Source of the DNA: Sutterella sp.
GTDB taxonomy: Bacteria > Pseudomonadota > Gammaproteobacteria > Burkholderiales > Burkholderiaceae_F
Assembly: GCA_017936545.1 (NCBI GenBank)
Contig: JAGBFJ010000053.1
Coordinates: 1 to 44,656 of the forward strand
Length of the DNA: 44,656 nt
Direction: 5' to 3'
Made by a program: the position numbers and the translations under genes. The notes beneath the pieces are model-generated. The model saw only the letters and a list, made by a program, of their open reading frames with translations, had not been told where the DNA came from and did not search any database. Positions 40,851-44,635 of this stretch are shown here, piece after piece; the first letter of the stretch is position 1; the number at the start of each line of letters is the position of its first letter.

Positions 40851-40886
40851 GCGGCGCCGATACCGCTTCACAGAAAAACTCAAAAA

Positions 40887-40922
40887 AAAAAGAGATCCGG
40901 CATTGCTGCGGGATCTCTTTTT
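40887..40922. terminator. Strong bidirectional terminator between the unknown gene and rplT
   Basis: A 12-bp perfect stem (AAAAAGAGATCC at 40887-40898 with GGATCTCTTTTT at 40911-40922) flanked by A and T tracts that serve both directions. It ends the thrS-infC-rpmI-rplT transcript. Confidence 0.92.
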
Positions 40923-41731: not shown

Positions 41732-42253
41732 TCACTTCTTCTTTTTAGGAGCCAGCACCATGATCATCTGGCGGCCTTCGAGCTTGGGCTGGTGTTCAAC
41801 CTGCGCTACGTCGGCCAGCTCCGCCTTGATGCGGTCCATCAGATCCATGCCAAACTGCTGATGCGCCATTTCGCGACCGCGATAGCGCAGCGTCACCTTG
41901 GCCTTGTCGCCGTCCGTCAGGAATCGCACCAGGCTGCGGAGCTTCGTCTGGAAGTCGTTTTCGTCCGTCACCGGGCGGAACTTCACTTCCTTCACCTGAA
42001 TCACCTTCTGCTTGGCCTTGGCTTCCTGAGCCTTCTTCTGTTCCTGGTAACGGAACTTGCCGTAATCCATCAGACGGCAGACGGGCGGGTTCGCATTCGG
42101 CGCAATTTCGACGAGGTCGACATCGGCGTCCTCGGCCATGCGCAGTGCTTCCGCGGTGCGGACAATCCCGATCTGGGCGCCATCGACGCCGGTCAGACGG
42201 ACCTCAGGAACTCGGATCTCACCATTGATCCGATGCTTGCGATCTTGAGCTAT
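41732..42253 (-). CDS. infC: Translation initiation factor IF-3, apparent ATA start codon
   Basis: 173 residues. The N-terminal domain (codons reading [15 protein letters not shown] then [14 protein letters not shown]), linker ([16 protein letters not shown]) and C-terminal ribosome-binding domain ending in KKKK are complete. IF-3 keeps 30S subunits free and rejects wrong start codons. The conserved N-terminus extends well beyond the first ATG (42139). The only codon in the right place is ATA 42253-42251, with AGGAG (42261-42265) 7 nt upstream. E. coli infC starts with AUU and is repressed by IF-3 itself; the same logic probably applies. It lies 33 nt after thrS. Confidence 0.95.
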
Positions 42254-42286: not shown

Positions 42287-44206
42287 TCAGTGCGCAAACT
42301 GGGCGCGGCTTTCGTCTTCAGCCTTGATCATGGCGAGGAAGTCCTCCACCTTGATCACGCCGAGGTTCTTGCCGCCGCGGGCGCGGACCGCCACGGTGCC
42401 GTTCTGCTTTTCCTTCTCGCCGACGACGAGAATGTACGGAATCTTTTGCAGACTAAGCTCGCGAATTTTATAGTTAATCTTTTCGCTGCGCAAATCAGTA
42501 TGAACGCGAACGCGCGCTTCATGCAGCTTGGCAGCAACTTCCTTGGCGTAATCCTGCTGAGCGTCGGTAATGCAGGCTACGGCGCACTGAACCGGCGAGA
42601 GCCAGGTCGGGAAGGCGCCGGCGTACTGTTCGATCAGCATGCCGATCCAGCGTTCAAGCGAACCGAGGATGGCGCGGTGCAGCATCACCGGGATCTTGCG
42701 GGTATTGTCTTCGGCCACGTATTCGGCGCCGAGACGGCCCGGCATCTGGAAGTCGACCTGGATCGTGCCGCACTGCCAGGAGCGGCCGAGGCAGTCCTTG
42801 AGGTGGTATTCGATCTTGGGACCGTAGAAGGCGCCTTCGCCTTCGAGGATCTCATACTTGATGCCGACGGCGTCAAGGCTCTGCATCAGAGCCGCTTCAG
42901 CCTTGTCCCAAACTGCGTCTTCACCGATGCGCATGGCCGGGCGGGTCGCCACCTTGTAGGCGATTTCCGTGAAGCCGAAGTCCTTGTACACGCGCTGAAC
43001 GAGGCGGGTGTAGGCTTCGCATTCCTCAAGAATCTGGTCTTCCGTGCAGAAGATGTGGCCGTCGTCCTGCGTGAAGCCGCGAACGCGCATCAGGCCGTGC
43101 AGCGAACCGGACGGCTCGTTGCGGTGGCACTGGCCGAATTCGCCGATGCGAAGCGGCAGGTCGCGGTAGCTGCGCAGATCCGAATTGAAGATCTGGATAT
43201 GGCCCGGGCAGTTCATGGGCTTGAGCGCGTAGTAGCGGTTTTCGGACTCAGTCGTGAACATGTTTTCACGATACTTGGCCCAGTGACCGGAGCGTTCCCA
43301 GAGCGAACGGTCGAGCAGCTGCGGCGCCTTCACTTCCTGATAGCCGTGGTCCTGATAGACGCGGCGCATGTACTGTTCGATGACCTGCCAGAGGGCCCAG
43401 CCCTTGGCGTGCCAGAAGATCATGCCCGGCGCTTCGTCCTGAAGATGGAAGAGGTCGAGCTCGCGGCCGAGGCGGCGATGGTCGCGCTTTTCCGCTTCTT
43501 CGAGCATCTTGAGATAGGCGGCCTGTTCGTCCTTCGTCGCCCAGGCGGTGCCGTAGATGCGCTGAAGCATTTCGTTCTTCGAGTCGCCGCGCCAGTAGGC
43601 GCCGGCCACCTTCATCAGGCGGTGCACCTTCAGACGGCCCGTCGACGGGACGTGAGGACCGCGGCAGAGGTCGGTGAAGTCGCCCTGACGGTAGAGCGAA
43701 ATCGTTTCGCCGTCGGGAATGGCGGCAATCAGTTCAGCCTTGTACTTTTCGCCGAGACCGAGGAAGAACGCCACGGCGTCGTCGCGGGACATTTCTTCGC
43801 GCACGATCGGCAGATCGCGCTTCACGATTTCGTCCATGCGGGCTTCAATGGCCTTCAGATCTTCGGGCGTGAAGGGGCGGCTGTACGAGAAGTCGTAATA
43901 GAAGCCGTTTTCAATCGCCGGTCCGATCGTGACCTGCGCTTCCGGATAGAGTTCCTTCACGGCCTGAGCCATGAGGTGAGCGGTGGAGTGACGGAGAATT
44001 TCGAGACCGTCTGCATCGCGGCCCGTCACGATAGCGACGGCGGCATCCTGCTCGACTACATAAGACAGATCGACAAGCTTGCCGTCCACACGACCGGCAA
44101 GAGCAGCCTTGGCCAGACCGGCGCCGATGTCGGCGGCGATCTGAGCCACTGTAACAGCACCCGGGAATTCGCGCTTGGAACCGTCGGGAAGGGTAACAGC
44201 AACCAT
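42287..44206 (-). CDS. thrS: Threonine--tRNA ligase
   Basis: 639 residues from [18 protein letters not shown] 7 nt upstream fixes ATG 44206. Domains: TGS (1-61), editing domain with [11 protein letters not shown] and [10 protein letters not shown], class II core with motif 2 [10 protein letters not shown], zinc ligands (the Cys of MNCPGH and later histidines) and motif 3 [14 protein letters not shown], then the anticodon-binding domain. It charges tRNA-Thr. It heads the operon thrS-infC-rpmI-rplT. Its leader carries a threonine-codon leader peptide and an intrinsic terminator that ends 31 nt before the start. Confidence 0.98.
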
Positions 44207-44236: not shown

Positions 44237-44324
44237 AAAAAAAAGTGCGGACATGAGCCGCACTTTTTTGTCTCGGTCAACTGATGGACAACGTCTCGCT
44301 CACGCCCTCTGATTAAAGAGAGGG
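44237..44324 (-). promoter_or_regulatory. thrS transcription attenuator (competing hairpins and terminator)
   Basis: In transcript order: hairpin 1, CCCTCT (44319-44324) with AGAGGG (44305-44310); antiterminator, GGGCGTGAGC (44298-44307) with GCTCATGTCC (44249-44258), ten pairs including two G-U; terminator, AAAAAAGTGCGG (44258-44269) with CCGCACTTTTTT (44239-44250), with a T run to 44237. Hairpin 1 and the antiterminator share GGG. The antiterminator takes the terminator loop and its top two pairs. No promoter fits between the terminator and thrS, so read-through must be allowed in some condition. Confidence 0.75.
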
Positions 44325-44357
44325 TGTTGTTGTGCGAAAGACCTGCTCAAAGCACAT
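44313..44357 (-). CDS. Putative threonine-rich leader peptide of thrS
   Basis: A 14-codon frame MCFEQVFRTTTPSL ending in TAA. Codons 9-11 are ACA ACA ACA (44325-44333), directly before the codons CCC TCT that form the 5' arm of hairpin 1. A ribosome waiting at these codons for charged tRNA-Thr would cover that arm and favour the antiterminator. The ribosome site is weak (GGGA, 10 nt upstream). The ATG lies 24 nt after the end of tRNA-Val, leaving little room for a separate promoter. The peptide is inferred from position and codons only. Confidence 0.65.
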   Translation of the reverse strand: MCFEQVFRTTTPSL

Positions 44358-44381: not shown

Positions 44382-44458
44382 TGGTAGGCACGATTGGACT
44401 CGAACCAACGACCCCCACCATGTCAAGGTGATGCTCTAACCAACTGAGCTACGTGCCT
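44382..44458 (-). tRNA. tRNA-Val (anticodon GAC), downstream copy
   Basis: 77 nt with encoded CCA. The acceptor AGGCACG pairs with CGUGCCU, D stem GCUC/GAGC, anticodon stem UCACC/GGUGG with loop UUGACAU (anticodon GAC), T loop UUCGAGU. It is identical to the copy at 44559-44635. It is followed after 24 nt by the thrS leader peptide, with no terminator between. Confidence 0.95.
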
Positions 44459-44470
44459 GTCAAGGTTTGA

Positions 44471-44476
44471 ATTATG
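44471..44476 (-). promoter_or_regulatory. Possible -10 of the downstream tRNA-Val
   Basis: CATAAT on the minus strand (in GCATAAT), 12 bp before the tRNA 5' end. The upstream tRNA-Val copy has the same GCATAAT at a matching distance, which supports a promoter function. Confidence 0.45.
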
Positions 44477-44558
44477 CAGGAAGTTTTGCCAAAAAGCAAA
44501 CCGCCTGCTAAACGGCCCCTGAACCGTTTTCACACTGCGCACTTTCCGAAGAAAAGGC

Positions 44559-44635
44559 TGGTAGGCACGATTGGACTCGAACCAACGACCCCCACCATGT
44601 CAAGGTGATGCTCTAACCAACTGAGCTACGTGCCT
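44559..44635 (-). tRNA. tRNA-Val (anticodon GAC), upstream copy
   Basis: 77 nt, identical in sequence to the copy at 44382-44458, with encoded CCA. The 100-bp spacer between the two copies is not conserved with the sequence upstream of this one except for GCATAAT. Confidence 0.95.

Follow-up and report, generated by a model that had tools for sequence, protein, structure and literature searches.

Threonyl-tRNA synthetase genes have two textbook controls, translational repression of thrS in Escherichia coli and the T-box in Firmicutes. Leader-peptide attenuators are known from the E. coli operons pheST (leader gene pheM) and thrABC (leader gene thrL). Attenuation of aminoacyl-tRNA operons was reportedly surveyed by Lopatovskaya and others in 2010. 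For thrS, a leader with Thr codons, also called thrL, has been predicted in Streptomyces lividans TK24; it lies on a leaderless transcript, encodes the peptide MKRVRPFLETTPGFVPAR with two threonines, and its termination is called not clear in the part of the paper available (PMC8079986). In the accessible parts of the literature searched, this was the only threonine leader of thrS (PMC8079986). No thrS leader from Proteobacteria appeared in those parts, among them the available portions of PMC2965389, PMC4833913, PMC1262725, PMC4176332, PMC10219788, PMC10272879 and PMC3110155; the 2010 survey may list such a case.

The locus described here lies in the window, the whole 44,656-nucleotide stretch of Sutterella sp. 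DNA that was analysed. We are highly confident that it holds a classical ribosome-mediated leader-peptide attenuator, which senses charged tRNA-Thr and controls thrS-infC-rpmI-rplT. The parts of this attenuator, their order, their conservation and their geometry were read from the sequence, from folding and from comparison with relatives (Table 1). The leader ATG begins 24 nt past the 3' end of the second tRNA-Val gene. Further along, infC probably starts at an AUA at 42253 (minus strand), 3' of an AGGAG ribosome site; AUA is one of the rare start codons typical of infC. The hairpin and T run that probably end the operon were read by eye and are absent from the output of the simple consensus terminator scan. 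About 1 kb beyond that hairpin, in minus-strand order, come pheS and pheT, and we saw no Phe leader in the DNA before pheS, which was read by eye only.

Table 1. Coordinates of the leader, its RNA structures and the surrounding genes in the window
Feature	Positions	Strand	Evidence
tRNA-Val(GAC), first copy	44559..44635	-	ARAGORN; Rfam RF00005
Probable promoter of second tRNA-Val: TTGCTT (44499-44494), 17 nt, CATAAT (44476-44471)	44471..44499	-	by eye
tRNA-Val(GAC), second copy, CCA encoded	44382..44458	-	ARAGORN; Rfam RF00005
Leader peptide ORF MCFEQVFRTTTPSL, 14 codons plus stop	44313..44357	-	equivalent ORF in 50/62 family genomes
Regulatory Thr codons ACA ACA ACA	44325..44333	-	sequence
1:2 hairpin CCCUCU (44324-44319) : AGAGGG (44310-44305), 6 pairs	44305..44324	-	folds
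Antiterminator strand 2, GGGCGUGAGC	44298..44307	-	pairing, folds
Antiterminator strand 3, GCUCAUGUCC (terminator loop and edges)	44249..44258	-	pairing, folds
Intrinsic terminator GUGCGG-CUCAUGU-CCGCAC + 8 U (predicted)	44237..44263	-	hairpin search, folds
thrS, threonyl-tRNA synthetase	42287..44206	-	NCBIfam TIGR00418, E 9e-221
infC, translation initiation factor IF-3	41732..42253	-	TIGR00168 on 41735-42139; upstream frame read from sequence
rpmI, ribosomal protein L35	41363..41560	-	TIGR00001
rplT, ribosomal protein L20	40987..41343	-	TIGR01032
Probable operon end, GAGATCC...GGATCTC hairpin + T run 3' of rplT	40882..40917	-	by eye

The leader reads ATG TGC TTT GAG CAG GTC TTT CGC ACA ACA ACA CCC TCT CTT TAA, which gives the peptide M C F E Q V F R T T T P S L. 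Among the 88 Thr codons of thrS, infC, rpmI, rplT, pheS and pheT, 2 are ACA; the leader has three in a row. Its best ribosome site is a weak GGGA (44371-44368), 10 nt 5' of the ATG. An in-frame TTG (44363-44361, minus strand), 4 nt past this GGGA, could be the true start, giving M-T-M-C-F... and one further Thr codon; the pattern TTG-ACN-ATG recurs in several genomes of the window's genus. When the window leader was shuffled with its dinucleotides preserved, at least three threonines in five codons arose in 4.5% of 1000 shuffles and in 6% of 300. By this measure the window alone is borderline, and the finding therefore stands or falls with its relatives.

We searched 67 genomes, the window's own included, of the family of the window, which we take to be a Sutterellaceae-type group. 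Five had no usable thrS start, leaving 62 with readable DNA before thrS. The original prediction had named a terminator kept without the Thr codons or the alternative pairing as the outcome that would count against it; what we found instead is that 50 of the 62 upstream regions (12 of 18 genera) carry both a Thr leader, with the core R-T-T-x-T or near it, and a T-run terminator, and that the other 12 (6 genera) lack both. An automatic rule had returned 43 genomes with leader and terminator, 8 with the terminator only and 11 with neither, and the figure of 50 includes 7 of the 8 terminator-only genomes, added after their sequences were read. In three of these (G052, G055, G038) the rule had misplaced the terminator or picked another ORF, and four have cores outside the rule (R-T-R-F-T in G029 and G041, R-T-P-F-T in G033, R-A-T-T in G054). 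Two of the 12 genomes counted as having neither hold a doubtful hairpin: that of G049 is long and poor and has no Thr leader, and that of G066 lies 227 nt before thrS by the strict rule, the automatic rule finding none. Four genomes of genus g4 (G014, G016, G018, G019) have a terminator by the later automatic rule and none by the strict one.

What the family keeps is mostly the threonine itself. Outside the core the leaders differ between genera: around the R-T-T they read RTTTTR in g2 and RTTFTGS in most of g6 and g7, and they end in QTTLTRF and RTTLTII in g15 and in RTTTPSL in part of g1, the stop codon following in each case. The Thr codons are ACA in g1, ACT and ACA in g2, ACG with ACA or ACC in most of g4, and ACT and ACG in the compact group, so that the variation falls mostly on the third base. 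The amino acid differs in G054, where Ala replaces the first Thr, and in G029, G041 and G033, where the second is Arg or Pro, and the core of several members holds just two Thr codons. The core alignment registered 49 of the 50 leaders; it missed G011 (E-T-T-N-T) and misregistered G036 and G039.

Statistics of composition were taken on the 44 of the 62 family genomes with a strict terminator no more than 200 nt from thrS, using ORFs between the tRNA (or position -150) and the terminator. Threonine is the most enriched of the 20 residues in these ORFs, and at least three Thr in five codons occur in 33 of the 44 genomes, versus 0.94 expected. Among representatives of genera, some of them chosen with knowledge of their leaders, the count is 12 of 12 versus 0.23 expected. 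It is 29 versus 1.10 expected among 53 other named loci, which are those of 79 with a strict terminator no more than 200 nt from thrS. Thr codons of the leaders are also rarer than expected from the longest ORF of the locus, taken as thrS (in a few loci perhaps another frame), in 25 of 26 scorable family leaders and 28 of 32 named ones.

The RNA downstream of the Thr codons in the window can pair in three ways. The leader stop codon sits in the loop of the 1:2 hairpin. The GGG of that hairpin at 44307-44305 is also part of the antiterminator, in which GGGCGUGAGC pairs with GCUCAUGUCC over ten positions, covering the loop of the terminator together with a single base of the left arm and the first two of the right. 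The terminator itself consists of GUGCGG (44263-44258) paired with CCGCAC (44250-44245) and a U tract at 44244-44237, and its T run lies 30 nt from the thrS ATG (44206); it was found by hairpin search and in folds, and the simple consensus terminator scan did not list it. Compared with shuffles, the 2:3 pairing of the window has p 0.04 and the 1:2 pairing p 0.06, and the whole-leader fold has z -2.39, with 6 of 200 shuffles as good. All the elements named in the original prediction are thus present as described: the 14-codon frame with ACA ACA ACA, the 6-bp hairpin, the ten-pair antiterminator sharing GGG with it, and the strong terminator with 8 Ts before thrS. Its two reservations were equally well placed, since the ribosome site is weak and the antiterminator disrupts the terminator only in part.

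In the fold without a ribosome, the start region of the leader is also paired, in a long outer helix. Such a fold could be a site at which ThrRS, or some other protein, decides termination, with the ORF secondary; E. coli ThrRS is known for autoregulation and is named in the part of PMC2965389 available. Changes in the Thr codons, however, are mostly synonymous and preserve the amino acid, which a protein site would not require. An operator like that of E. coli would moreover probably not fit into the 30 nt past the terminator, and we regard this explanation as very improbable next to leader-peptide attenuation.

Pairing across lineages was examined in two ways. Against shuffles, 41 of the 46 family rows had a 2:3 duplex stronger than the mean (p 0.05 or less in 21) and 43 of the 46 a 1:2 duplex stronger than the mean (p 0.05 or less in 19); for G007 and G008 this set contains incorrect terminators, and for G038 an incorrect ORF. 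Pairing was near chance in 50 named-locus rows (median z 0.28 for 1:2 and -0.53 for 2:3), which we attribute to how the strands were cut. In a swap test on 18 divergent family leaders and 24 other chosen leaders, strands were cut by the Thr codons and the stop, and native partners outdid swapped ones over all 42 (z -6.2 for 1:2, z -5.4 for 2:3). The 24 other leaders gave z -1.8 (p 0.04) for 1:2 and z -3.8 (p 5e-5) for 2:3. The 18 family leaders gave z -5.9 for 1:2; within the family alone 2:3 showed no preference for its own partner (z -1.2, p 0.12). With the terminator loop alone as strand 3, the 2:3 result was p 0.49 for the family, 0.05 for the others and 0.013 for all. Because native 2:3 partners beat swapped ones over the 42, we conclude that the two strands have changed together as lineages diverged; this is less marked within the family, whose members differ little in strand 3.

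Within the 12 genomes of the window's genus, 58 of 72 cells of the 1:2 hairpin and 109 of 120 cells of the antiterminator are paired, and the terminator stem is invariant in all 12. One genome, G058, has an altered strand 2 (GUGCCG) and an altered strand 3 (CGGC) with the pairing kept; across the 2:3 alignment columns a two-sided change occurs at only one pair, in one genome. The antiterminator of several other genera extends into the terminator left arm (GCGG), which answers the reservation about its reach for those genera and not for the window's own. Of the proposal that relatives would keep the Thr run and both pairings with compensatory changes, the retention is borne out between lineages, and the compensatory changes are thin in the window's genus. 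Taken together, retention across the family and the advantage of native over swapped partners support the predicted threonine attenuation of thrS.

To model a ribosome on the leader, the RNA that it would cover was removed, on the assumption that its footprint reaches 13 nt beyond the start of the A-site codon, and the remainder was folded. Placing the A site on the first, second or third ACA makes the antiterminator the most stable fold at nascent ends 44249 (-20.0 kcal/mol) and 44245 (-21.4 kcal/mol). A ribosome on the stop codon masks strand 2 and leaves only four of the ten antiterminator pairs; at 44245 a different, weak structure (-13.8) is then favored, and the terminator appears only at 44237. 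Without a ribosome the 1:2 hairpin forms, and the terminator hairpin is present at ends 44245 and 44237. In the window folds, then, the 1:2 hairpin and the antiterminator exclude each other; strand 1 is hidden by a stall, and strand 2 by a ribosome that has reached the stop codon. Classical attenuators have this geometry. With the U tract fully transcribed, a stalled ribosome no longer prevents the terminator from being the most stable fold (-23.9). The switch must therefore be kinetic, and the antiterminator has to act while the right arm and U tract are still being made.

Moving the A site to either of the next two codons, CCC or UCU, leaves the antiterminator as the best fold, and the stall therefore need not be at Thr. 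This raises the possibility that the attenuator responds to slow translation in general, or to nascent-peptide arrest at R-T-T, and not to the charging of tRNA-Thr. Most leaders retain an Arg in front of the Thr pair. In 37 of the 49 registered it is encoded by CGA, a codon that accounts for 2 of 172 CGN codons in six genes of the window. Yet 7 of the 12 genomes in the window's genus use CGC or CGT at this codon, 4 use CGA and 1 has Ala; the enriched residue is Thr and not Arg, and the gene controlled is thrS. We consider a signal of this other kind unlikely and continue to favor threonine sensing.

From these parts we infer a translated leader, a stall and read-through. RNA polymerase would start at the tRNA-Val promoter or promoters and make the tRNA and then the leader, with a ribosome translating the leader behind it. 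When charged tRNA-Thr is ample, the ribosome would reach the stop codon and cover strand 2, or leave and let 1:2 pair; the terminator would then form, and only tRNA-Val and a short leader RNA would be made. When it is scarce, the ribosome would halt on ACA ACA ACA and cover strand 1, so that 2:3 could pair before the right arm of the terminator is finished and the polymerase could enter the genes for ThrRS, IF-3, L35 and L20.

The start of this transcript appears to lie at the tRNA-Val genes. The tandem genes (44382-44635, minus strand) each have their own promoter-like sequence; two copies occur in 11 of 12 genomes of the window's genus, and one in the other family genera in which tRNA-Val was found. 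The probable promoter of the second copy was read by eye, the simple promoter scan not listing TTGCTT-17-CATAAT, and we infer that it also serves the leader and thrS. Contig C9 of the same genome has as its last 98 bases the end of the window, so C9 (L002 1200-1598) is probably the upstream neighbor; on it TTGCTT-16-CATAAT stands before the first tRNA-Val, with a terminator-like hairpin between this promoter-like sequence and the end of the last gene of C9. In the 36 family genomes with tRNA-Val, the leader core lies 26 to 54 nt (median 44) past the tRNA 3' end, and in many of them promoter-like sequences were seen by eye just 5' of the tRNA. Given such sequences in the window, in C9 and in relatives, transcription from the tRNA-Val promoter is the simplest account of how the leader and thrS are read, and the two seem to share the tRNA-Val transcript.

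A terminator in this position might merely end the tRNA-Val transcript, with thrS read from a promoter of its own and the Thr ORF a product of chance. A tRNA-Val gene does lie directly upstream in many relatives, and in a single genome the Thr ORF is near chance. Against this, 12 genera of the family, and loci beyond it, retain Thr leaders, and the other 6 lack leader and terminator alike; in all nine genomes of genus g2 both are present although no tRNA was found in the 500 nt searched. Comamonadaceae-type loci likewise have the leader without tRNA-Val in the 500 nt searched. The 30 nt from T run to ATG would leave thrS little room for its own promoter, the gap is under 30 nt in several relatives, and the simple scan lists no promoter between terminator and thrS. 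An independent thrS promoter was accordingly rejected, 30 nt being short for one that does not overlap the terminator. We find a chance ORF behind a plain tRNA terminator extremely improbable, and retain the reading in which the terminator is the decision point of a threonine attenuator.

Similar Thr leaders were found across Burkholderiales. Named loci that have one include Massilia, Janthinobacterium, Burkholderia, Paraburkholderia, Ralstonia, Cupriavidus, Roseateles, Acidovorax, Comamonas (mostly MTPRT...), Vogesella, Aquitalea and Azoarcus. The order was sampled with 80 of 114 non-family genomes with a match, about one per genus, from 47 families. A terminator lies within 230 nt of thrS in 59 of the 80, and at least three Thr in five codons occur in 16 of the 80 (11 of the 47 families), some of the ORFs in this sample running through tRNA-Val and perhaps being accidental (e.g. 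G096). Taking the order as a whole, the Thr leader is thus seen in a minority of families. In other orders (40 of 55 genomes) the corresponding counts are 11 of 40 and 1 of 40, and a looser rule finds a Thr leader in 25 of 80 and 2 of 40, respectively. Three Comamonadaceae-type loci outside the family retain the place of the leader, but Thr codons or the ATG have been lost. Thr codons are fewer in Polaromonas (L050), which also reads ATA for the leader ATG, and in Giesbergeria (L080), with the peptide MTPRTSSEKLAGR, and both keep a terminator; Rhodoferax (L057) has MTPRTSRQLFM and no good terminator nearby. The switch may be decaying in these three loci.

The sole genome from other orders with at least three Thr in five codons, G192, led to a family with a Thr leader of its own. 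By eye, MSTT, MRTT or MDTT leaders are present in 19 of 22 loci, a 23rd locus being partial and left out; the automatic rule finds 16 of 22, one by another ORF. In most of these loci (L271-L292) a strongly conserved GGTGGCCCGCG...GTGCGACATG is followed by MSTTTAHR and a stop codon, or a similar leader, and then by a GGCGCC-type terminator. The same GGTGGCCCGCG...GTGCGACATG occurs in a named member of the Lysobacterales (L116) and in a Pseudoxanthomonas MAG (L107), for which reason we call this group Xanthomonadales-like. Also by eye, GTGC...GCAC can enclose the leader start in this family, and a 5' GGTGG is complementary to the Thr codons ACCACC.

These patterns suggest a wider hypothesis, which we hold with only a slight lean in its favor. 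In many Betaproteobacteria, thrS-infC-rpmI-rplT would have no main promoter of its own and would be driven by the tRNA-Val promoter; the terminator would act both as the tRNA terminator and as a threonine gate, and tRNA 3' processing would set the 5' end of the leader. The MSTTTAHR leader would do the same job in Xanthomonadales, and Thr-codon attenuation, not an E. coli operator or a T-box, may be a main control of thrS in these proteobacteria. If so, the conserved Burkholderiales leader and the second, Xanthomonadales-like one would amount to a third solution for thrS. Threonine supply would be tied to the amounts of IF-3, L35 and L20, and an aminoacyl-tRNA synthetase would be coupled to a tRNA promoter. 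The leader would serve to report on Thr-tRNA charging, and RNA-seq of these bacteria is predicted to show a short RNA that lies between tRNA-Val and thrS.

Among the known controls of thrS, the Firmicute T-box likewise senses tRNA charging and controls a terminator before the gene, but it does so by binding tRNA directly, unlike the leader in the window. At the Rfam gathering threshold the window has only tRNA matches and no T-box, and there is no T-box among 14 weak Rfam matches of the leader. T-boxes, other Rfam leaders and riboswitches were rejected for want of a covariance model match; no Rfam leader family (e.g. the Thr operon leader) was found in the window, in 8 relative loci or in 17 of 23 Xanthomonadales-like loci. 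The Xanthomonas sRNA sX14, a weak match (E 1.5), was dropped as the thrS leader after giving no match in 17 of the 23 Xanthomonadales-like loci, and matches to HPnc0260 in relatives, one of them in L119 just above threshold, overlap tRNA-Val and look spurious. The translational operator of E. coli thrS likewise acts from the 5' region of the gene, but it is a tRNA-like RNA near the start that binds ThrRS, without leader peptide or terminator; in the leader fold, the 30 nt between terminator and thrS form only short weak stems.

The closest likeness is to E. coli pheM and thrL. They too have a short ORF rich in codons for the sensed residue, a stop codon between strands 1 and 2, helices 1:2, 2:3 and 3:4, and a U-tract terminator before the operon. 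We therefore describe the window leader as classical leader-peptide attenuation, a mechanism already known, and claim no priority for it. It differs from pheM and thrL in what it controls, thrS with infC-rpmI-rplT, in lying just past a tRNA-Val gene, seemingly with no promoter of its own, and in a strand 3 that is mainly the terminator loop. Compared by description, the thrL of S. lividans is also a Thr-codon leader peptide predicted before thrS, but it comes from an actinobacterium and, in the part of the paper available, from a leaderless transcript, unlike the leader described here (PMC8079986).
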